The notes under the pieces were generated by a model. That model searched no databases. It was not told where the DNA came from and saw only the letters and a list, made by a program, of their open reading frames with translations. From Bordetella genomosp. 9 (GTDB lineage Bacteria > Pseudomonadota > Gammaproteobacteria > Burkholderiales > Burkholderiaceae_B), in assembly GCF_002261425.1 (NCBI RefSeq), contig NZ_NEVJ01000003.1, forward strand, positions 2,666,001-2,730,000: a stretch of 64,000 nucleotides of DNA, given 5' to 3'. Below, piece by piece: positions 17,401-28,019 of the stretch (the stretch's first letter is position 1; every line of letters begins with the position of its first letter). A program made the translations under genes and the position numbers.

Positions 17401-19770
17401 ATGCAGGCGCTGAGAACCTATGCACTCGTATCGATTCTGTTTCTGGCGCTCCTGCCTGGTAGTTGGACGCCGGCAAGCGCCGCCGTCCCCAGAACCTTTT
17501 TTCTGCCGGATGAAACCGAATTCGCGGTTTCGCTGAAGCCTTTCATTACCGCCTACGCCGACCCCGGCGGCCAACTCGATTTCGAACAGATACGCCAATT
17601 GGCCGAGCGGAATCCCGATATTTTCCAGCCGGCGGAAATAAGAGGCCGGGCCGCCACCGGCCCCGAGACGGCGTGGTGGCTGCAACTGGTCATCACCAAT
17701 ACCAGGGATCACGCCAACCGGCTCACGCTGGTGGCGGGCCCGAGCAACCTCGAGCACGTCGATTTCTTCGTCGAAACGAAGGACGCGCAGTGGCACACCC
17801 GTGCCGGCACCCAGGTTCCCATCCTGCAGCAGCAGGATCTGACGCGCTTTCCCACGCTGGGCCTGGACCTGAACGGCGACGAAACTGTACGCGTGTGGGT
17901 AAAAATCAAAAGTCACACGCCCTACACGCTCAATCCGGTGCTGTATACGCGCCGCGTATTCCAGACGGCGGACAGCGTGACGACAAGTTCCGACAGCATA
18001 TTCGTCGGGGCGGGAGGCGCGCTGGTCGCGTGCATGGTATTGGCCGCGATCGTGGCCCGGCGCGCGCCCTTCCTGTGGCTGGCGGCGATCGGCGCCGGCG
18101 CGGTGGTGCGTGAAGCCGCCGGCCGCGACTATCTGCAGCGGCTGCTCTGGCCGCTGGATGCCACCTGGGGCTATCGGCTGGAATTGACACTCGACATCCT
18201 TTACCTGGCCTTGTGCGCCATGTTCGTCCGGCGCGCGGCCAGCAGCGATCCGCTGACCATCCCGGGCACGCGGGTCTATCCCGCGGCCATCGCGTGCCTC
18301 TGTACCTGCCTGCTCGCGGCCATGCTGTTGCCGGTGCCGTTCGCGCTTCCGGTTCCCATCTCGCTCTGGCTGTACCAGGGCCTTACCGCCCTGCTGGCCG
18401 CCTGCATGCTGGCATCGGCCGCCATGCTGGCCAGCCGTGCGACCGCCGCGCCTTCCGCGCCGGCCGCGCGCCGGGCCCGCACCGTCGCGGCCCTGTTGGC
18501 CTTGTCCGCGATCTTCATCATCGTGGACGCCGGCGTCAGGACCATGGGGCCGTTCCTGCCCTCTCCGCTGATCTCCAACGCGATGCTGCTGGACTCCGGT
18601 TCGCCGCCGCTGGCCCTGCTCGCCGTGATCGGCAACCTGACGGTCATGACACTGTGGGCGGCGGGCCAGTTCGCCCTGTCCAGGCCCATGCCGCCGGCGA
18701 CCTCCCCGGCCAGGCCGCGCCGCGCGCCGCCGCCGCTGACGACGCAGGAGCCTGAACATGCGCCCGCGCCGCCGGCCTTCCTGCCCGTGGCGGTGCCCGC
18801 GGGCGTCGGGGCGCAGGCGTCCGTCGCCACCCAAGCCATGATCCTGGGCTATGTCGGACACGACCTGCGCGCGCCGCTGGCCATCATCAGCGGCTACGTC
18901 CGCCTGTTGCGGCAGGCCGCCGCGCCCACCCAGCACGACTATCTGGATGTCATCGAACGCAGCGTCGGCCATCAATTCGGCCTGATCGAAGAACTGCTCA
19001 CCTACAGCAAGCTGGAGCTCGAACCCTTCGCCATCCATCCGGAAGAAGTCGAGCTGCCGCTGCTGCTGGACGAACTGGCCCGCTTCGGCATCGCGCTGTG
19101 CACCCATCAGCGCAACAGCTTCGAGTACCTGCCCGCACCGACCTTGCCGGCGGTCGTACGGGTGGACGCCAAGCGCGTGCGGCAGACCGTATTGAACCTG
19201 CTCGGCAACGCGGCCAAATTCACTACGGACGGCACGGTGAAATTCGAAGCCCGGGTGCAGGGCCAGGATGCGGCGCGAGCGGAATTGCATATCGCCGTCT
19301 TCAACGACGGCCCGCACATCTCGGTGGAGGACCAGCGCGAGATCTTCCTGGCGTTCCGGCAATTGCATCGCCGCGAATCCGGCCTGGGCCTGGGTCTTTT
19401 CATCGTCGAACGGATCGCGCGCGCCATGGGCGGCAACGTCCGCGTGGACAGCGCCCCCGAACGGGGCAGCCGCTTTCACCTGACCATCCCGATCGAATTG
19501 GTGGACGCTTCCGCCGTCGATACACGGCCGCTGGGACAGAGCCACGCGCGCGACCTTCAAGGACCGCCGCTGGCGGCGCCCCCGCTGGCCCTGCGCCTGG
19601 CGCTATCGCGGCTGGCGCAGGATGGCGAGCTATCCGAGATCGAAAACTGGATCCACGAAACACGCGCGGTCTACCCGCAATACCAGGCCTTCTATGACGA
19701 AGTCGCCAAACGGGTGGAAACCTTCGACATGGAGCGGCTGCAAAGGCTGGCCCTGCAAGGCACGATGTAG
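17401..19770 (+). CDS. Membrane histidine kinase with 7TM sensor (7TMR-DISM type)
   Basis: A 789-residue sensor kinase. A Sec-type signal (residues 1-28) is followed by an extracytoplasmic beta-rich domain (about 30-195) that looks like 7TMR-DISMED2, a block of about seven membrane segments (about 200-430) and a Pro-rich linker. Then come HisKA with phospho-acceptor His487 in GHDLRAPLA and a HATPase with N-box LLGNAAKF and G-box ESGLGLGLF. A C-terminal helical extension of about 75 residues follows the kinase core. No response regulator lies beside it, so it is an orphan here. Position suggests sensing for the PaoABC-like operon or the biosynthetic cluster, but this is unproven. Confidence 0.87.
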   Translation: MQALRTYALVSILFLALLPGSWTPASAAVPRTFFLPDETEFAVSLKPFITAYADPGGQLDFEQIRQLAERNPDIFQPAEIRGRAATGPETAWWLQLVITNTRDHANRLTLVAGPSNLEHVDFFVETKDAQWHTRAGTQVPILQQQDLTRFPTLGLDLNGDETVRVWVKIKSHTPYTLNPVLYTRRVFQTADSVTTSSDSIFVGAGGALVACMVLAAIVARRAPFLWLAAIGAGAVVREAAGRDYLQRLLWPLDATWGYRLELTLDILYLALCAMFVRRAASSDPLTIPGTRVYPAAIACLCTCLLAAMLLPVPFALPVPISLWLYQGLTALLAACMLASAAMLASRATAAPSAPAARRARTVAALLALSAIFIIVDAGVRTMGPFLPSPLISNAMLLDSGSPPLALLAVIGNLTVMTLWAAGQFALSRPMPPATSPARPRRAPPPLTTQEPEHAPAPPAFLPVAVPAGVGAQASVATQAMILGYVGHDLRAPLAIISGYVRLLRQAAAPTQHDYLDVIERSVGHQFGLIEELLTYSKLELEPFAIHPEEVELPLLLDELARFGIALCTHQRNSFEYLPAPTLPAVVRVDAKRVRQTVLNLLGNAAKFTTDGTVKFEARVQGQDAARAELHIAVFNDGPHISVEDQREIFLAFRQLHRRESGLGLGLFIVERIARAMGGNVRVDSAPERGSRFHLTIPIELVDASAVDTRPLGQSHARDLQGPPLAAPPLALRLALSRLAQDGELSEIENWIHETRAVYPQYQAFYDEVAKRVETFDMERLQRLALQGTM

Positions 19771-19949
19771 CCAGGCCAGATGGCCAGGTGTCGGGACATG
19801 TGTCAGGCCAGATGTCAGGCCAATTGACATACTAGACGTCAGGCCAGTCCGATATTTCCATCAGCCTCATGTGCATCCTCCGGCGCTCCCCTAGTCTGCG
19901 CCCGCCAACCGGATATACCCATCCGGTCTTCTGCCGCACGAGGTTTCCC
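19771..19949 (+). promoter_or_regulatory. Control region of the biosynthetic cluster with short repeats
   Basis: The 179-bp gap after the kinase holds three copies of GTCAGGCCA (19802-19810, 19814-19822, 19838-19846), a perfect TTGACA at 19824-19829 and the 16-bp element at 19845-19860 shared with 17129-17144. A GATATT within that element could be a -10, but its 21-bp spacing from TTGACA is too long for an ordinary sigma-70 promoter. Confidence 0.35.
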
Positions 19950-20951
19950 ATGATGGAATTAACCGTCGACTTTATTTTCACCCCCCAGGACGCGACAGCG
20001 CTGCAGCGCATCCTGACGGACATCGACGTCAATCCCTACGCCAACTATGGCGCTTTCGAAGAGCGGGTAGACGCCGTCATCCGCAGCGGCCAGGTACCCA
20101 CCGCCTTCCTGGATTGCTGCGAAATGCGCCGGCATGCCGACAGCTACGAAAGCCCCTACGTCGTCCTGCGCAACTGCCCCATCGATGCCGAGCTGCCCTA
20201 CCTGGACTTCGACAACCCTGTGCACGACAAGCGCGAACGCAAGGGCACTCACGTCGCCGAGGCTTTCCTGCTGCTGTACGCCAAGCTGATGGGCCAGGAG
20301 CCCATCGGCTACGCCAATGTCAACGACGGCGACATCTTCCAGGACATCCATCCGCAGAAGAGCCTGGCGCAAAGCCAGTCCCAGAAGGCCATGAAGCCCA
20401 TCTATTTCCACAAGGACCTGGCGAATCATTTCGTCCGCCCCGACTGGGTCAACATCCTGGGCTTGCGCGCATCGCCACGCAACCAGATCTACACCTGCTA
20501 CGTGCGCAACAAGGACCTGCTGCCCTTCCTGGGCGCGGATCTCTGCGCCGACCTGCGCCAGCATGAATTCCACACGCCCTATGACGACCTCACCCTGCAT
20601 AACAGCAAGGTGCGCCTGGGCGAGGCGGACGTGCATCCGGTGCTGGGCGGCGCAACGGCGACCGACCTGCGCTTCTTCGAAAACCGCACGCGCGGCCTGA
20701 CCCAGCGCGCCAGCCGTGCCGTGGAAATGCTGATCTCCGCGCTGCACAAGCTGAAGAAGCGGGTGCAGATCCTGCCGGGCGACCTGGTCGGCGCCGCCAA
20801 CAACGATTGCCTGCACAGCAAGGACGTGGGGCTGGTCCTCGATCCGGAGGCGTTGCGCAACCGCTGGCTGATGAAGACGGTCAACGTCCGCTCCCTGGCG
20901 CAACACGCGCAGTACTTCTCCGACGACCGGCCGCGCGTCGTCAACGGCTAA
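19950..20951 (+). CDS. AsnO/VioC-like Fe(II)/2-oxoglutarate amino-acid hydroxylase
   Basis: A 333-residue oxygenase of the TauD/clavaminate-synthase-like superfamily. Iron ligands are read as His154 and Asp156 (FHKD) and His289 (NDCLHSKD). Arg303, 14 residues after the distal His, would bind 2-oxoglutarate. Spacing is close to AsnO and VioC, which beta-hydroxylate free Asn and Arg in peptide-antibiotic pathways, although those use His-X-Glu while this protein has His-X-Asp. CGAGG lies ahead of the ATG at 19950. It is 11 bp from the A-T-TE synthetase, so it probably makes or tailors its amino-acid substrate, predicted as Gln-like. Substrate and stereochemistry are unknown. Confidence 0.8.
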   Translation: MMELTVDFIFTPQDATALQRILTDIDVNPYANYGAFEERVDAVIRSGQVPTAFLDCCEMRRHADSYESPYVVLRNCPIDAELPYLDFDNPVHDKRERKGTHVAEAFLLLYAKLMGQEPIGYANVNDGDIFQDIHPQKSLAQSQSQKAMKPIYFHKDLANHFVRPDWVNILGLRASPRNQIYTCYVRNKDLLPFLGADLCADLRQHEFHTPYDDLTLHNSKVRLGEADVHPVLGGATATDLRFFENRTRGLTQRASRAVEMLISALHKLKKRVQILPGDLVGAANNDCLHSKDVGLVLDPEALRNRWLMKTVNVRSLAQHAQYFSDDRPRVVNG

Positions 20952-20962
20952 GGGGAAAGCAC

Positions 20963-23674
20963 ATGCGCACGCCTTTCCCTGTGGACCATTTCGATCTGGT
21001 GTCCCGGACCCTGCCCACGCAGGTCGCGATCCGTCACGGCGGACGCGACTGCAGCTACGCCGACCTGCGGGCCGCCGCGGATCGTGTGGCGAACTGCCTG
21101 CGCGCCCTGGGCGTGGGACGCGGGGTCGTCATCGGCATCGCCCTGGAGCGCTCGGTCGAATGGGTCGCGGCGATGCTGGGTGTCCTGAAGGTCGGGGCGG
21201 CCTACCTGCCGCTGGACCCGGCCTATCCCAGGGACCGGCTTGCGCTGTGCATCGCGGATAGCGGCGCCCGCTACGTCATCAGCGACGCGGCGAACCGCCA
21301 CATCAGCCCGGACAACGTTCTACTGATCGAAGCCCTGGTCGCGGACGCGCGCGGGGCGGACAAGGCCGCGTGCGAGGTGGATGGGCCGGGCGTCGATACG
21401 CCGGGCGTCGATACGCCGGGCGTCGATACGCCGGGCGTCGATACGCCGGGCGTCGCCGCGCCGGGCGTCGCCACGCCGGGCGTCGCCACGCCGGGCGTAT
21501 CCACGCTGGGCATCGAGGCACTTGGCGTAGATACGCCCCCGGTGGCGGCGGACGCGGATCCCGCCTATCTGCTGTACACCTCGGGATCGACGGGCCGTCC
21601 CAAGGGCGTCGTCGTGCCACGCGCCGCCCTCGCCTACCAGATGCAATGGTTCGTGCGCGAGTTCGCCTGCGGCCAGCACGACGTCTTCCTGCAGAAGACG
21701 TCCACGGCCTTCGACGCTTCCGTATGGGAATACCTGGCGCCCCTGATGGTGGGCGCCACCATGGTCATCGCCGACCACACCCCCGCCGCCATCGCGCAGG
21801 CGGCGCGCGAACACCGCGTCACCCTGCTGCAGCTCGTGCCCGCCATGCTGCAGGCCCTGGCCGATTCCGACACACTGCGCGATCTCTCTAGCCTGCGCCT
21901 GCTGTTCTGCGGCGGTGAACCTCTGCCGCGCCGGCTGGTCACGCGCGTGCAGGCCTGCCTGCCCATCCCCGTCGTCAACCTGTACGGCCCCACGGAAGCC
22001 ACGGTGCAGTGCGCCTTCCACCTATGCCTGCCGTCGGACGGCGACACGCGCGACCCGGTTCCGCTGGGACGTCCGTTGCCAGGCACCCTGTTCCATATCC
22101 GGCAGGAAGCGCCGGACGGCGCCGGCGAGCTGACGATCGAAGGCCCGGGCGTCGCCAGCGGCTATCACGGACAGGCCGCCCTGACGGCGGAGCGCTTCGG
22201 CACGTCGCCCGCCGGCGGACGCACCTATCGAACCGGCGACAGGGTCGCGCTCGACCGGCACGGCGACCATATCTTCCTGGGACGCGCCGACAACCAGGTC
22301 AAGCTGCGGGGACTGCGCATCGAGCTCGAAGAAATCGAACACGCGGTCGCGCGCTGCGCGCCAACGGTGCGCGGCGCCGTGGCCATCGTCAACGCGGCCG
22401 AGCAGATCGAAGTATTCGTCGATGCCGGCCCGGCCGACTGGAACGAGGCCAGCGTCCGTATCGCCCTGGCCGCCGCGCTGCCGGCCCATATGCAGCCGGC
22501 CATCTATACGCCATTGGATCATCTGCCCCTGCTGCCCAACGGCAAGCGCGACCGCGGCGCCCTGCGCCAGTTGAGCACGCGGAGCACGGCAGGCGTACCG
22601 AACGACACAGCGCCCGCCCGCGGCGGTCTCGATGTCGCCGCGCGCGTACGGGCCGCCTGGTCCAGGGTGCTGCCGCACAGCACCGCCGACGATAGCCATT
22701 TTTTCCAGGCGGGCGGCCATTCGCTGATGGCCATGCAACTGGTGGCCGCGCTGAACCAGGACTTCGGCCTGCAGCTTTCCGCCAGCACGCTGTTCGCCCA
22801 GCCCACGCTCGCCGCCTTGACGCGCCTGGTGGAAACCACCGCCCGCGACCGCGCCAAACGCCGTCTGCCGACCGGCTTCGCCAGGCTGGGCGGCCCCGCG
22901 CACGCGCCCAAGGCATGGTTCGTCCACCCGGCGGGCGGCGGCATCTGGTGCTATCGCGATATCGCGGAATCGGCGCAAGACATGGCGTCCTATGGCATCG
23001 CCTGCGAGCCGCACGCGGACGGCGCCTACGAGACCGACCTGCGTCGCATGGCACGGCGCTACGCCGACCAGGTCCTGGCGCAGGATCCCGACAGTCCGCC
23101 CATCCTGTGCGGCTACAGCTTCGGCGGCAACGTCGCCTACGAAATGGCGGTACACCTGCAATCGCAAGGCGTCGAACCGGCGCTGCTGGTGCTGCTGGAC
23201 ACCTACATCAGCCGGCCCACCGGCGAAGACACCCTGGACTTCATCGCCAGCTATGCGCGCAAACTGATGGACGGCGACGCACAGGCGCCTTCCCGGGACG
23301 ACCTGGCCGTGATGCCCGTCGACGCGCGCAACCGGATGCTGCTGGAGATGGGCATCAAGGGCGGGCACCTGCCCGCCGATGCCACGCCGCGCGACGTGGA
23401 ACAGGGCCTGGCGATATGGATCGCCAACAACCATGCGGCCAGCACGCATGCGCCGCGCGACGTTTTCGAAGGCCCCACGCTGTTCATCCGCGGTACCGGA
23501 AACGCGCGCGACAGCCTGCAGGGATGGCCGCCCTTGTTGAAGTGGCTGCACGTGCAGGACGTGCCCGCCGACCACTACTCGCTGTACCGGCAACCCGTCG
23601 CCGGCTATATCGCCTCCTTGATCGAAGCGGCCATCCAGCGCTCGCTGCGCGGGAGAACCCATGCCGTGGCGTAG
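20963..23674 (+). CDS. Mono-modular NRPS-like synthetase, A-T-TE, predicted glutamine specificity
   Basis: A 903-residue synthetase with no condensation domain. Adenylation domain (about 10-535): A3 YTSGSTGRPKG, A5 NLYGPTEAT, A7 YRTGD, A8 GRADNQVKLRG, A10 Lys528 in PNGKRD. Carrier domain: phosphopantetheine Ser587 in GGHSL. Thioesterase: Ser719 in GYSFGG and His871 in ADHYS. Aligning A4-A5 to GrsA gives the specificity residues D-A-W-Q-F-G-L-V-Q-K, close to the glutamine code DAWQFGLIDK. Ten pentapeptide repeats (residues 142-191) interrupt the A domain before A3. No oxidase domain lies between A8 and A10, so it is not an indigoidine synthetase. It should load Gln or hydroxy-Gln and release it by TE-driven hydrolysis, cyclisation or transfer. 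Confidence 0.88.
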   Translation: MRTPFPVDHFDLVSRTLPTQVAIRHGGRDCSYADLRAAADRVANCLRALGVGRGVVIGIALERSVEWVAAMLGVLKVGAAYLPLDPAYPRDRLALCIADSGARYVISDAANRHISPDNVLLIEALVADARGADKAACEVDGPGVDTPGVDTPGVDTPGVDTPGVAAPGVATPGVATPGVSTLGIEALGVDTPPVAADADPAYLLYTSGSTGRPKGVVVPRAALAYQMQWFVREFACGQHDVFLQKTSTAFDASVWEYLAPLMVGATMVIADHTPAAIAQAAREHRVTLLQLVPAMLQALADSDTLRDLSSLRLLFCGGEPLPRRLVTRVQACLPIPVVNLYGPTEATVQCAFHLCLPSDGDTRDPVPLGRPLPGTLFHIRQEAPDGAGELTIEGPGVASGYHGQAALTAERFGTSPAGGRTYRTGDRVALDRHGDHIFLGRADNQVKLRGLRIELEEIEHAVARCAPTVRGAVAIVNAAEQIEVFVDAGPADWNEASVRIALAAALPAHMQPAIYTPLDHLPLLPNGKRDRGALRQLSTRSTAGVPNDTAPARGGLDVAARVRAAWSRVLPHSTADDSHFFQAGGHSLMAMQLVAALNQDFGLQLSASTLFAQPTLAALTRLVETTARDRAKRRLPTGFARLGGPAHAPKAWFVHPAGGGIWCYRDIAESAQDMASYGIACEPHADGAYETDLRRMARRYADQVLAQDPDSPPILCGYSFGGNVAYEMAVHLQSQGVEPALLVLLDTYISRPTGEDTLDFIASYARKLMDGDAQAPSRDDLAVMPVDARNRMLLEMGIKGGHLPADATPRDVEQGLAIWIANNHAASTHAPRDVFEGPTLFIRGTGNARDSLQGWPPLLKWLHVQDVPADHYSLYRQPVAGYIASLIEAAIQRSLRGRTHAVA
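21386..21535 (+). repeat. 15-bp tandem repeat encoding PGVDT-type pentapeptides
   Basis: Ten in-frame 15-bp units: four identical PGVDT, then PGVAA, two PGVAT, PGVST, LGIEA and LGVDT. The first four are identical in DNA, which indicates recent expansion. The later ones have drifted. The repeat lies inside the adenylation domain between the A2 and A3 motifs, where most homologues have only a short loop. Confidence 0.95.
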
Positions 23675-24872
23675 CGGGGGCGCGCGGAACATTCCAGGCC
23701 CTGCTCCGCGCCACCTGCCCCTGCTGATCGCATTGACGTCCGTGTGCGGCTTCGTCGCCACGGACATTTTTCTGCCCGCCGTCCCGGCGCTGGCGCACGT
23801 CTACGACCGCGACGCCACGGATATCCAGGCCATGTTCAGCATGTTCCTGTACGCCCTGGCCGCCAGCCACCTGATCCATGGCCCCTTGTCGGATGCCTAC
23901 GGCCGGCGCATACCCCTGCTGATGTCGCTGGCCACCTATTCCGCCGCATCGCTGGCCATCCCCTACACCGACTGCTACGACCTCGTGCTGGCATGGCGCG
24001 CCCTGCAGGCCGTCGGCGCCTGCGGCGCGATCGTCGTGGGCCGCGCCGTCGCGGCGGACTTCCACCACGGCGAAAGCCTCAGGGATTTCTTCCTCGGCAT
24101 CTCCATCGTCGTCGGCATGTCGCCCGCCCTGGCGCCCGTGCTGGGACAGCAGCTCTACGCAGCGCTGGGCTGGCAGGCCTGCTTCCTGTTCACCGCCGCC
24201 TTCGGCGCGCTGCTGGGATTGCTCGTGTATGCGAAGCTGCCGGAAAGCCTGGCGGCGCCCGCCCCGCGCGATGCCTGCGCGCGCCAGGCCTGGAGCGCCT
24301 ATGGCGCGGTGCTGCGGTCGCGCGATTTCCGTCTGAACGCCGCGATCATCGCGGTATCGCAGGCGGCGTATTTCGCCTACCTGTCGGAGTCGGCCTTTCT
24401 GCTGCTCGGACAGGGACTGGCGCCCGGCGCGTTGGGCTACACCTACATCAGCCTCTCGGTCGCCTACGTGGCCGGCAATGGCGTGGCGCGCGCGCTGGCG
24501 CCCCGCGTCGGCGGCCCCGCCTTGTACCGCCTGGGCTGCCAGCTGTTTCTTTGCGCCGGGCTCGCACTGGGCATGGGCCTGCCCCTGCTGCCCGCTTCCA
24601 CGGGCCTGCTGTTGGCGGGGGTATCCCTGCTGACCTTCGCCAACGGCTTCCTGCTGCCTCTGGGCACCGCCGCGGCGATCGGCGCGGCGCCGGCCAACGC
24701 CGCCAGCGCCTCCGGACTGGCGGGCTTCCTGCAGCTTTCCTGCGCGGCGCTCGCGGCGCAGACGATAGGCCCCCTGACCGCGCATCGGCCGGGCGCATTC
24801 GGACTCGTCATGCTGGGCTTCGGCATGGCGAACTTCGCGCTCTATCTGGTGCTGCGCCGACGCCAGCCATGA
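23661..24872 (+). CDS. MFS drug/metabolite exporter, Bcr/CflA type
   Basis: A 403-residue inner-membrane transporter with about 12 membrane segments. The Bcr/CflA-type signature is visible: LPAVPALA early, then the loop 2-3 motif HGPLSDAYGRRIPLL and the WRALQAVGACGA segment. Relatives export sulfonamide, bicyclomycin or small peptides. The ATG lies 14 bp inside the synthetase gene, so the two are translationally coupled. The natural role is export of, or self-protection against, the product of the A-T-TE enzyme. Confidence 0.88.
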   Translation: MPWRSGGARNIPGPAPRHLPLLIALTSVCGFVATDIFLPAVPALAHVYDRDATDIQAMFSMFLYALAASHLIHGPLSDAYGRRIPLLMSLATYSAASLAIPYTDCYDLVLAWRALQAVGACGAIVVGRAVAADFHHGESLRDFFLGISIVVGMSPALAPVLGQQLYAALGWQACFLFTAAFGALLGLLVYAKLPESLAAPAPRDACARQAWSAYGAVLRSRDFRLNAAIIAVSQAAYFAYLSESAFLLLGQGLAPGALGYTYISLSVAYVAGNGVARALAPRVGGPALYRLGCQLFLCAGLALGMGLPLLPASTGLLLAGVSLLTFANGFLLPLGTAAAIGAAPANAASASGLAGFLQLSCAALAAQTIGPLTAHRPGAFGLVMLGFGMANFALYLVLRRRQP

Positions 24873-24884
24873 AGGAAACATACC

Positions 24885-26345
24885 GTGCTACTGCCCTTCC
24901 GCACCGCGGCGCTGCCCGCCGACATCGCCGACTTCACGCTCACCCAGGCGATCGCCGCCTTGCGACGCGGGGCCATCCACAGCCATGAGCTGATCGACGC
25001 CACCCAGGCCCGGCATGCCCGGCACGGCCAATTCGGCGCCTTCATTTCCACCGCGTTTGAACACGCGGTGCACCAGGAGCCGGAATACGCCGGCGCGATC
25101 CACATACCGGGGCCGGTTTCGTTGCTGGGTGTCCCCATCGCGGTCAAGGACAACGTGCACGTGACCGGCTTTTCCTGCACCGCCGGCACGCCGGCGCTGG
25201 CGCGATTCCGGCCCGCACGGGACGCCACCGTCATCCGACGCCTGCGCGACGCCGGCGCCTTCTTCGTCGGCAAGACGAACATGCATGAGCTGTCGCTGGG
25301 AGTGACTTCCCACAACGCCTATTTCGGCGACGTGCGCAATGCACGCGATCCGGCGCGGCTGGCCGGCGGCTCCAGCGGCGGCAGCGCGGTGGCGGTGGCG
25401 CTGGGCCTGGCCTACGGCGCGATCGGCACCGATACGGCGGGCTCGATCCGCATCCCGGCGGCATTGAACGGCATCGTGGGCCTGCGGCCCACCGTGGGCC
25501 GTTATCCGGGCGACGGCGTCGCGCCGGTCAGCCCCACCCGCGACACCCCGGGGCCGATGGCCAGGACCGTCGCCGACGTCGCCTTGCTGGACCAGGTCAT
25601 CACCGGCACGCAACGCCCGGCCATGGCGGCCCGGCCCGAGTGCATCCGCCTGGGCGTGGTGCCGCGGCTCTTCTTCGACGGGCTGGATGCGCAGGTGCAC
25701 GCGCTCGCGCAGCAGGCGCTGCGGCGCCTGGAAGACAGCGGCGTACGCCTGATCGAACTGCACATGCCGGAGCTGGGACAGTTGAACGACAGCACCAGCA
25801 CGGCGATCGGCTACGCCGAGTTCTGGCCCGCCATGGAACGTTACCTGCGCACCCACGGCACGGGCCTGTCCATGGAAGACCTGGCACGCGGCGCCGCCGG
25901 CGATGACGTGCGCGCGCTGATCGAGAATTTCCTTGCGCCCTCTTCACCGCATCGCGTGCCGTCCGAGCTGTACGAAGCGGCCATCCGCACGCATCGGCCC
26001 GCCCTGCGCCGCTTGTTCCTGGAACAATTCTGCCGCCACAAGCTCGACGGCATCATCCTGCCGACGACGATCGCCGTGGCCGGCAGGCTGGCGTCCATGG
26101 CGGGCATCGTCGCGCTGAACGGCGAGCCGATATCCGCCAACTACGCCTATCTGCGCAATACGCTGCCGGCCAGCAACGCGGGCCTGCCGGGGCTGGCCCT
26201 GCCGGCCGGCTACACGCCACAAGGGCAGGCCGTCGGCATCGAGATCGACGGCCCGCCGCATGGCGACCGCCGCCTGCTGGAAATCGGCTTGACGCTGGAA
26301 GCCATACTCTCGGTACCCATCGCGCGCGCGACGCCAGCCCACTGA
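24885..26345 (+). CDS. Amidase-signature enzyme linked to the NRPS-like cluster
   Basis: A 486-residue amidase with Lys88 (IAVKDNVH), cis-Ser164 (GGSSGGS) and nucleophile Ser187 (GTDTAGSIRIP). The sequence is of the mandelamide/indoleacetamide hydrolase kind rather than GatA. The GTG start at 24885 follows GAAGGAAA and is 12 bp after the exporter, so it belongs to the cluster. It could hydrolyse a carboxamide of the product (for example a Gln side-chain amide), open a cyclic imide, or detoxify the compound. These are inferences from context. Confidence 0.85.
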   Translation: MLLPFRTAALPADIADFTLTQAIAALRRGAIHSHELIDATQARHARHGQFGAFISTAFEHAVHQEPEYAGAIHIPGPVSLLGVPIAVKDNVHVTGFSCTAGTPALARFRPARDATVIRRLRDAGAFFVGKTNMHELSLGVTSHNAYFGDVRNARDPARLAGGSSGGSAVAVALGLAYGAIGTDTAGSIRIPAALNGIVGLRPTVGRYPGDGVAPVSPTRDTPGPMARTVADVALLDQVITGTQRPAMAARPECIRLGVVPRLFFDGLDAQVHALAQQALRRLEDSGVRLIELHMPELGQLNDSTSTAIGYAEFWPAMERYLRTHGTGLSMEDLARGAAGDDVRALIENFLAPSSPHRVPSELYEAAIRTHRPALRRLFLEQFCRHKLDGIILPTTIAVAGRLASMAGIVALNGEPISANYAYLRNTLPASNAGLPGLALPAGYTPQGQAVGIEIDGPPHGDRRLLEIGLTLEAILSVPIARATPAH

Positions 26346-26393: not shown

Positions 26394-28019
26394 ATGAGAC
26401 AACACGCCGCACGACGGTACGCTCCCACCTGCCTGGCCGTCGCGCTCGCCTGCTGCGCCGCCATCGCCACCGCGCAACCCGCGCCCACCACCACGGCGGC
26501 GCCGGACAGCGCCACCGCGCCCGCACCGGCCGGCGCCGCGCCTCAAGCGTCCCCCGCCGCGAAGCCGGCCGCCAAGCCGCATGGCCGCGACGAATTCTTC
26601 TGGCTGGGCGAAATCAACAAGGCCACCGCGGTCATCAACACCGACGAAGGCCTGCTCGACAAATCCATGGCGCCGCGCCTGGCCGCCGCCGTCGCCAAGG
26701 TCATCCAGGACGGCGATCAGCCCGGCGGCAAGCGTCCGTCCACGGTCATCACCTTCGAACCGCTGCTGATCAAGGCCGGCGGCCTTGACGTCACGCTGCT
26801 GCATGCGGGCCGTTCCAGCCAGGACATGCACGCGACGTATCGCGCGGCCATCCTGCGCGACAAGCTGCTGGAGCTCGCCGACCAGCTGAACGCCACGTCG
26901 ACCACGCTGGTGAACCTGGCGGCCAAGCACGTCGACACCATCGTGCCCAACTACACCAACGGCGTGGCGGCCCAGCCCAACAGCTATGGACACTATCTGC
27001 TGGGCCACGCGGCGGGGCTGGACCGCGATGCCCAGCGCATCCGCGAGACCTATGCCCGCGTGGACCGTTCGCCCATGGGCACCACGGTGCTGAACGGCAC
27101 CAGCTGGCCGCTGGACCGCAAGCGCATGGCCGACTATCTGGGCTTCAGCCAACTGGTCGACAACGCCTATGACGCGTCGCAGATTTCCTCGATGGACGAG
27201 CCCGTCGAAGTTTCCTCCATCGTCACCAGCATCGCATTGCACACGGGCAACTTCATCGAAGACATCATGACGCAGTACGCCGAATCGCGTCCCTGGATCC
27301 TGCTGCAGGAAGGCGGCGGCAATACCTACGTGTCCAGCGCGATGCCGCAGAAGCGCAATCCCGGCCTGCTGAACTCCACGCGCAGCGACGCATCCACCGC
27401 CATCACGCTGGCGATGGGACCCATCATCCAGACCCACAACATCACCCCGGGCATGCCCGATCCCAAGGACGTCGAACAGAATTCCGCCATGGTCGACAGC
27501 GCCATCAAGGCGCTGAAGAAATGGGATCGCGTGCTGAAGGCCCTGGTGATCAGCCCGGACCGCGCGCTGGAGGAATTGAACAGCGACTGGACGGCATCGC
27601 AGGAACTGGCCGATCTGCTGATGCGCAAGTACAAGCTGCCCTTCCGCGAAGGACATCATTTCGCGTCCGAAGTCGTGGAGTACGCTCGCCAGAACAACAT
27701 CAAGCCGCTGGATTTCCAGTACGCGGACGCCAAGCGCATCTACGCCGAAGTCGTGAAGGGCAGCAAGTATCCGCAGGAATTGCCCATGACGGAAGCCGAG
27801 TTCCGTGCGTCGCTGGACCCCGTGGCCATCGTCAGGAACCGCGCGACGTCGGGCGGACCGCAGCCGGCGGAAATGGAACGCATGCTGAAGGAAGCCCGCG
27901 CGAAACTGTCCGCCCAGGCCGACTGGATCAAGCAGCGCCGCGCCCATATCGATGACTCGCTGGGACGGCTGGACAAGGACTTCAACCAGCTTGTCGCCAG
28001 CGCCGCGCCGGCCAAATAA
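26394..28019 (+). CDS. Secreted fumarase/argininosuccinate-lyase superfamily protein
   Basis: A 541-residue protein with a clear signal peptide (MRQHAARRYAP, hydrophobic core, ATA-Q near residue 28), a Pro/Ala-rich linker of about 45 residues and a full lyase-superfamily body. The superfamily signature is present as SSAMPQKRNPG, and the early NSYGHYLLGHA segment fits the His-containing substrate loop. Members normally act in the cytoplasm on argininosuccinate, adenylosuccinate, fumarate or aspartate. Export to the periplasm is unusual. The ATG at 26394 follows AAGAAGAGG. It lies 48 bp after the amidase on the same strand and may be co-transcribed. The substrate is unknown. Confidence 0.82.
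   Translation: MRQHAARRYAPTCLAVALACCAAIATAQPAPTTTAAPDSATAPAPAGAAPQASPAAKPAAKPHGRDEFFWLGEINKATAVINTDEGLLDKSMAPRLAAAVAKVIQDGDQPGGKRPSTVITFEPLLIKAGGLDVTLLHAGRSSQDMHATYRAAILRDKLLELADQLNATSTTLVNLAAKHVDTIVPNYTNGVAAQPNSYGHYLLGHAAGLDRDAQRIRETYARVDRSPMGTTVLNGTSWPLDRKRMADYLGFSQLVDNAYDASQISSMDEPVEVSSIVTSIALHTGNFIEDIMTQYAESRPWILLQEGGGNTYVSSAMPQKRNPGLLNSTRSDASTAITLAMGPIIQTHNITPGMPDPKDVEQNSAMVDSAIKALKKWDRVLKALVISPDRALEELNSDWTASQELADLLMRKYKLPFREGHHFASEVVEYARQNNIKPLDFQYADAKRIYAEVVKGSKYPQELPMTEAEFRASLDPVAIVRNRATSGGPQPAEMERMLKEARAKLSAQADWIKQRRAHIDDSLGRLDKDFNQLVASAAPAK

Follow-up and report, generated by a model that had tools for sequence, protein, structure and literature searches.

A four-gene locus of Bordetella genomosp. 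9 is probably a conserved, functional pathway, with its enzyme reactions and product predicted from sequence. In particular, within the window (the whole 64,000-nucleotide stretch of DNA that was analysed), positions 19950–26345 of the plus strand carry four co-directional genes, as read from the open reading frames and from searches of Pfam and NCBIfam. These genes encode an AsnO/KDO1/VioC-type Fe(II)/2-oxoglutarate oxygenase (HYD), a synthetase with adenylation (A), carrier (T) and thioesterase (TE) domains, an MFS exporter, and an amidase. We tentatively propose, with somewhat less than even confidence, that they specify a pathway which makes and exports a small glutamine derivative, one that would be released as a glutarimide after hydroxylation by HYD.

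The HYD gene (19950–20951, plus strand) encodes 333 amino acids with putative ligands H154, D156 and H289, and is followed on the same strand by the genes for the A-T-TE synthetase (20963–23674; 903 amino acids), the exporter (23661–24872; 403 amino acids), and the amidase (24885–26345; 486 amino acids). The exporter gene overlaps the synthetase gene by 14 bp, and the amidase gene begins 12 bp after the exporter gene. These findings confirm a sequence-only reading of the window, which had described four tightly spaced genes with a Bcr/CflA-like exporter among them; the open reading frames, Pfam and NCBIfam agree with its gene calls and its spacing. The best NCBIfam match of the exporter (MFS_1 in Pfam) is TIGR00710 (Bcr/CflA), with 193.3 bits versus the curated 200.9 bits, and the amidase-signature enzyme (Amidase in Pfam) lies near indoleacetamide hydrolase, its 512.6 bits against NF005688 falling below the cut-off of 532 bits.

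A motif scan found three copies of TGTCAGGCCA, one of them mismatched, whose starts are spaced by 12 and 24 bp (19801–19846, plus strand) in the 179-bp gap 5′ of the HYD gene. Allowing at most one mismatch, the motif has 9 matches in the window versus 4.05 expected, 3 of them within 46 bp, and the trio is a possible operator. A sigma-70 scan returned one site only, on the opposite strand and at chance level (0.9 expected); terminator-like sites numbered 9 versus 3.9 expected, and none was used as evidence for an operon. Note that the gene for a histidine kinase with a 7TMR-DISM sensor precedes HYD in the same direction (17401–19770), and that an argininosuccinate-lyase-like protein with a signal-peptide-like N-terminus by eye is encoded 48 bp past the amidase gene (26394–28019); it scores under the argH cut-off (194.1 versus 279.5).

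Pfam and NCBIfam assign AMP-binding, PP-binding and Thioesterase domains to the synthetase. On the plus strand, the A-domain match spans 21008–22168 (residues 18–404 of the 905-residue query), the T-domain match 22643–22831 (residues 563–625 of that query), and the TE region, defined by Pfam and by alignment of relatives, 22877–23671. Pfam found neither a Condensation (C) domain nor the oxidase (Ox) domain PF00881 at 0.001, in accord with the earlier description of a condensation-less A-T-TE enzyme from which the oxidase domain is absent; PF00881 was likewise found in none of 120 relatives of the synthetase (the best 120 listed).

The ten positions of the substrate code were located by motif in the window protein and by pairwise alignment in the others, using what we take to be their equivalents in GrsA. 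The code so obtained, DAWQFGLVQK, is kept in 15 of 16 synthetase representatives (P0121–P0136), the other being DAWQLGLVQK in P0123, and it also occurs in two Serratia A-T proteins (P0221 and P0233). Similar codes are DAWQFGLIDK (P0137–P0140 and L029), DAWQFGLVDK (L035) and DAWQFGLIQK (P0143). The window code matches DAWQFGLIDK, the glutamine code from tyrocidine synthetase (PMC2866473), at 8 of 10 letters, and the glutamine-type A domain that had been claimed for this enzyme stands as a prediction from the code. All 16 representatives have Q at position 331, where D is usual. We dropped the idea that this residue marks a hydroxylated glutamine, as Q331 is also present in 6 of the 104 other listed proteins; three of the Q331 proteins outside the 16 (P0168, P0200 and P0217) have no known link to HYD. 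Q331 can do no more than hint at a modified glutamine. Note that an A-domain loop carries GV-x-TP units encoded by an in-frame 15-bp tandem repeat (21385–21537, plus strand), which is long in the window gene, shorter in P0122 and P0123, and not seen in the other displayed members (P0131 excluded).

A close comparison for such an enzyme is with the indigoidine synthetases (IdgS, A-Ox-T-TE), which, like the window enzyme, are single glutamine modules that have no C domain and end in T-TE (PMC10989907); the window enzyme differs in having no Ox domain and in being accompanied by a separate Fe/2OG oxygenase, an exporter and an amidase. The same source describes offloading and cyclisation of T-bound L-Gln by the TE of IdgS to give (S)-3-aminopiperidine-2,6-dione, accumulation of 3-aminopiperidine-2,6-dione by a mutant in the Ox domain, a similar cyclisation of glutamine for PadE-TE, though PadE-TE is 21.0% identical to the TE of IdgS, and no product from an excised T-TE didomain supplied with Gln-SNAC (PMC10989907). 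Because A, T and TE domains with a glutamine-type code but no Ox domain are what remains when the Ox domain is taken from IdgS, an aminoglutarimide would by analogy be the simplest product. The locus appears to have, instead of an internal oxidase, a free-standing amino-acid oxygenase next to a glutamine-type single-module synthetase, a known type in a new combination. The earlier statement that no pathway with this gene set has been described agrees with our searches of an open-access library, which found none; subscription journals and MIBiG were outside the scope of the search. What is new is that HYD is the shared core of a wider set of clusters and that the same TE clade ends A-T-C-T-TE enzymes in Bacilli and Serratia.

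Ser81, Asp108 and His233 of the TE segment (segment numbering) are invariant in all 21 aligned relatives. The window TE is 38–41% identical to the TEs of P0137–P0140 and P0143, with the next long TE matches among the other listed proteins at 28–29% (P0240 reaches 35%, but over just 102 residues). Among structures, AB3403 is the nearest to the window TE, with hydrolysing, cyclising and fatty-acid-synthase TEs ranking below. By Pfam, L029, P0143, P0137 and P0140 are A-T-C-T-TE, P0135 is A-T-TE, and P0221 is A-T; the A-T protein of Serratia fonticola has no TE of its own. The A-T-C-T-TE synthetases of Bacillus, Paenibacillus and Serratia share with the window enzyme a DAWQFGL-type code and a TE of the same clade, and differ from it in their extra C and T domains. 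HYD is encoded directly upstream of the A-T-C-T-TE enzyme in L029 and L035, as in the window, although these two loci, unlike the window locus, have no amidase match. The same arrangement holds for P0143 of S. fonticola by frame reading: its start, MADENGQCA, matches the end of HYD read in a shifted frame (LADEDGQRP is the window equivalent), so that the P0143 gene directly follows the end of a HYD gene.

The fact that one TE clade is common to A-T-TE enzymes (Bordetella) and A-T-C-T-TE enzymes (Bacillus, also Serratia), that is, to one-residue and two-carrier enzymes, suggests chemistry within the last residue, namely hydrolysis or formation of a glutarimide or a beta-lactone; we count it for the glutarimide, which it suits. 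An obafluorin-like release, in which the beta-hydroxyl closes a beta-lactone, would use the presumed hydroxyl from HYD and would also stay within the last residue. However, the obafluorin beta-lactone TE has a catalytic cysteine, whereas serine is present in 21 of 21 rows here, and we give such closure very little chance of being correct. The two carriers of the related A-T-C-T-TE enzymes, which can make dipeptides, and the linkage of the amidase to the set would suit a TE that uses an outside amine or alcohol as acceptor, or couples two residues, to yield an amide, an ester or a dimer that the amidase trims later. Such a product is nonetheless very doubtful, the window enzyme having no C domain and the four genes including no obvious one for making an acceptor.

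HYD had no Pfam match at 0.001, and its NCBIfam scores are far under the curated cut-offs for clavaminate synthase (62.6 versus 450 bits), GntD (53.5 versus 345) and VioC (34.9 versus 418.6), placing it outside these equivalogs. Structure comparison gives it the fold of the KDO1/AsnO/VioC amino-acid hydroxylases, which bears out the AsnO/VioC-type Fe/2OG assignment made earlier; the protein carries an HxD/E...H facial triad within the clavaminate-synthase-like superfamily fold. Compared with oxygenases of that superfamily (AsnO, KDO1, VioC, OrfP and NapI), HYD is approximately 20–24% identical and has an invariant residue set of its own. AsnO is its best match both by sequence and by Foldseek (identity 22–24%). 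The family comprises at least 288 database proteins. One of these, P0068 from the fungus Cercophora samala, is 53% identical to HYD with a weakly supported place in the tree, which suggests transfer from bacteria or contamination.

The rank of AsnO in both comparisons, and the fact that IMG labels some HYD homologues L-asparagine oxygenase, would fit a HYD that hydroxylates another amino acid (asparagine, an aminoadipate-like one, or other), with the A-T-TE enzyme using that product or a different partner and the glutamine code being misleading. At 9 loci the partners of HYD have the code DVRHFALLAK, which matches the published aminoadipate code DPRHLALLAK at 8 of 10 letters and the published asparagine code DPRHVSLLAK at 7 of 10 (PMC12283262); since these partners are nearer to aminoadipate and asparagine codes, HYD may not be a glutamine enzyme throughout. 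Against a substrate other than glutamine in the window, DAWQFGL codes are found in the window family and, independently on the HYD tree, in Bacillus. Moreover, HYD has an invariant Phe aligned to the aspartate of AsnO that presumably holds the asparagine side chain, the alignment being uncertain at this spot. We regard this alternative as unlikely. In the HYD tree (43 sequences, with 21 rows, including Serratia and Chromobacterium, in no group), six Bordetella/Paraburkholderia-type rows stand apart from two Bacillus rows, all with glutamine-code synthetases, and the starred branches force at least two changes, the Bacillus branch being long (1.58); the eight rows with DVRHFALLAK partners need two changes too. 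This distribution of partner codes indicates that HYD may make one product for several partners or may have substrates that differ by branch. Note that the fungal candidate glutamine hydroxylase GloE is described as inactive on glutamine and glutamate, and its homologue IboH as hydroxylating glutamate, not glutamine (PMC7778625).

The sequence-only reading had named conserved synteny as a check, and we compared the locations of three of the four genes, using equal-sized longest contigs of 13 HYD, 19 synthetase and 16 amidase rows, drawn from the best 120 listed for each. Equal size is read as the same contig, not as adjacency, and carries less weight where contigs are short; the lists contain 90% cluster representatives only, so that misses are not absences. 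In addition to the window's own contig (3706771), HYD, synthetase and amidase occur together on four further contigs: 5532470 (Bordetella sp. H567), 2282712, 162062 (Paraburkholderia phenoliruptrix) and 16635. Two of the three occur on 7 more, with HYD and synthetase on 5966919 (B. bronchialis), synthetase and amidase on 402957 (B. sputigena), 10906 and 6187, and HYD and amidase on 309715, 79215 and 58973 (Chromobacterium haemolyticum); in S. fonticola, contig 310554 carries an A-T protein together with an amidase. Eight of the 15 non-window synthetase representatives match HYD or amidase and 7, including those of B. genomosp. 8 and B. flabilis, match neither, and 9 of 13 other amidases at 59% or more have a match. 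Among the best 120 listed, the nearest named relatives are from Bordetella genomosp. 8 for the synthetase (83%) and Bordetella sp. H567 for HYD (84%). By the contig comparison, HYD, synthetase and amidase are linked in further Bordetella and in Paraburkholderia. Gene order outside the window is based on the equal-sized contigs, P0143 and P0016. The last of these (539 amino acids, HYD then AMP-binding) was rejected as a HYD-synthetase fusion, its later part being the out-of-frame end of HYD running into the start of the synthetase; it shows adjacency only.

A genome scan recovered 39 HYD loci in Actinomycetota, Pseudomonadota and Bacillota and in one Hormoscilla MAG. None of the 39 is from Bordetella. 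As both scan motifs are present in two Bordetella proteins, P0002 and P0004, the genomes that encode these were apparently outside the scanned set; the nearest genus in the scanned genomes had HYD in 0 of 1 genomes, and 398 genomes of the Trinickia genome's family gave 5 matches at 1e-30. Many small clusters have HYD as their constant part, often by an exporter and often with no nearby NRPS. It lies beside an A-T-C synthetase, an EamA gene and a PPTase in L001 (PPTase by eye) and likewise, by sequence cluster, in L006; it adjoins an APH-like kinase and an MFS gene in L003 and L004 (Pfam) and in L005 and L024 (cluster), one gene with no assignment and an MFS gene in L010, ATP-grasp ligases in L014 and L018, an EamA-like gene in L025 (by eye) and L027 (by cluster), and an MFS gene in L031 (Pfam) and L038 (cluster), HYD being truncated in the last two. 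The HYD gene was called in 37 of the 39 loci, and in 20 of these a protein with at least 8 predicted membrane segments is encoded within the first four or fewer co-directional downstream genes, versus 1 of 107 more distant genes, a background that looks low; as the gene calls are rough and the loci related, the downstream exporter-like gene is a trend and not a statistical test.

Several of these loci bear further mention. In Trinickia and Paraburkholderia oxyphila (L031:10001–10576 and L038:1602–2444) HYD is truncated, and in a Pseudomonas contig (L036:8453–9441) it is split, the neighbours looking intact in each case. In L024 (9992–14030), as well as in L012 and L007, HYD, the APH-like kinase and the MFS gene are joined by a weak nucleotidyltransferase-like gene (20.2 versus 21 bits in L024), a set that may be a further small-molecule cluster. 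Plasmid records contain HYD relatives at 26–36% identity in 7 cases, and two matches to the synthetase DNA, covering at most 5% of the query. Two of the distant HYD relatives, in L045 (Streptomyces sp. plasmid, 36%) and L046 (Staphylococcus epidermidis plasmid, 26%), have as neighbours leuCD, an aminotransferase, an isochorismatase-like hydrolase, a cupin and an FAD/NAD(P)-binding protein; these clusters look like one amino-acid-like pathway with a theme other than that of the window.

In 18 of the 39 loci neither an A-domain match nor an NRPS-cluster gene is present in the stretch covered (among these, HYD is truncated or split in L031, L036 and L038, and L032 is cut by a contig end), which favours a free substrate for HYD. 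Carrier-bound amino-acid tailoring of the SyrB1/2 and Cyt type combines A-T, a non-haem iron enzyme and a TE. The window locus shares these elements, while its HYD aligns with AsnO/VioC-type enzymes. The A-T-TE enzyme could accordingly be a mere handle of this kind: HYD would act on free or T-bound glutamine, the TE would hydrolyse the thioester, and hydroxyglutamine (or hydroxyglutamate, after the amidase) would be exported as an antimetabolite or signal. The placement of an Fe/2OG enzyme beside an A-T-TE enzyme with a Ser-type TE fits such hydrolytic release, as does an amidase near indoleacetamide hydrolase, which suits deamidation of a primary amide. Yet the 18 loci suggest that HYD is independent of a carrier, and AsnO, KDO1 and VioC, its relatives by fold, act on free amino acids, which would make a handle needless. 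We consider hydrolytic release possible but somewhat unlikely.

In the glutarimide pathway that we favour, HYD, judging from its fold and neighbours, would hydroxylate a free L-amino acid; L-glutamine is the most likely substrate and C-beta the most likely position. The A domain would then activate glutamine or hydroxyglutamine and load the T domain, and the TE, there being no C domain, would release a monomer. As a guess, the side-chain amide might attack to give the glutarimide 3-amino-4-hydroxypiperidine-2,6-dione, which the Bcr/CflA-like MFS protein would export; the amidase might, again as a guess, deamidate the product or open its ring, either to mature it or to protect the producer. What HYD, TE and amidase do, and what the product is, are predictions. 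We count for this model the glutamine-type code, the A-T-TE make-up with neither C nor Ox domain, the KDO1/AsnO/VioC fold of HYD, the NRPS-free loci, the glutamine-code partners on two branches, the cyclisation by the TE of IdgS, and the linkage of HYD, synthetase and amidase; against it stand the DVRHFALLAK partners, Q331, a window TE that did not prove close to any TE known to cyclise, the 7 of 15 synthetase representatives that match neither HYD nor amidase, and the S. fonticola A-T protein that has no TE.

An extension of the model, which we hold to be quite improbable, is a second, oxygenase-based route to the oxidation level of indigoidine, in which C-beta hydroxylation by HYD and glutarimide formation by the A-T-TE enzyme would be followed by loss of water to give C5H6N2O2; that loss of water from 3-amino-4-hydroxypiperidine-2,6-dione reaches the oxidation level of the indigoidine monomer is formula arithmetic only. 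If this route were correct, nature would make hydroxylated 3-aminoglutarimides, the thalidomide pharmacophore, by means of this cluster, and HYD would be the founding member of a family of glutamine beta-hydroxylases that feeds many small clusters. The pathway is small enough for testing with two purified enzymes. The result would assign a function to an oxygenase family whose genes, across widely different bacteria, neighbour those for kinases, NRPSs, ATP-grasp ligases and exporters. It could also open an enzymatic source of beta-hydroxyglutamine and of hydroxylated aminoglutarimides, and would reveal what is secreted by a group of Bordetella and Paraburkholderia.
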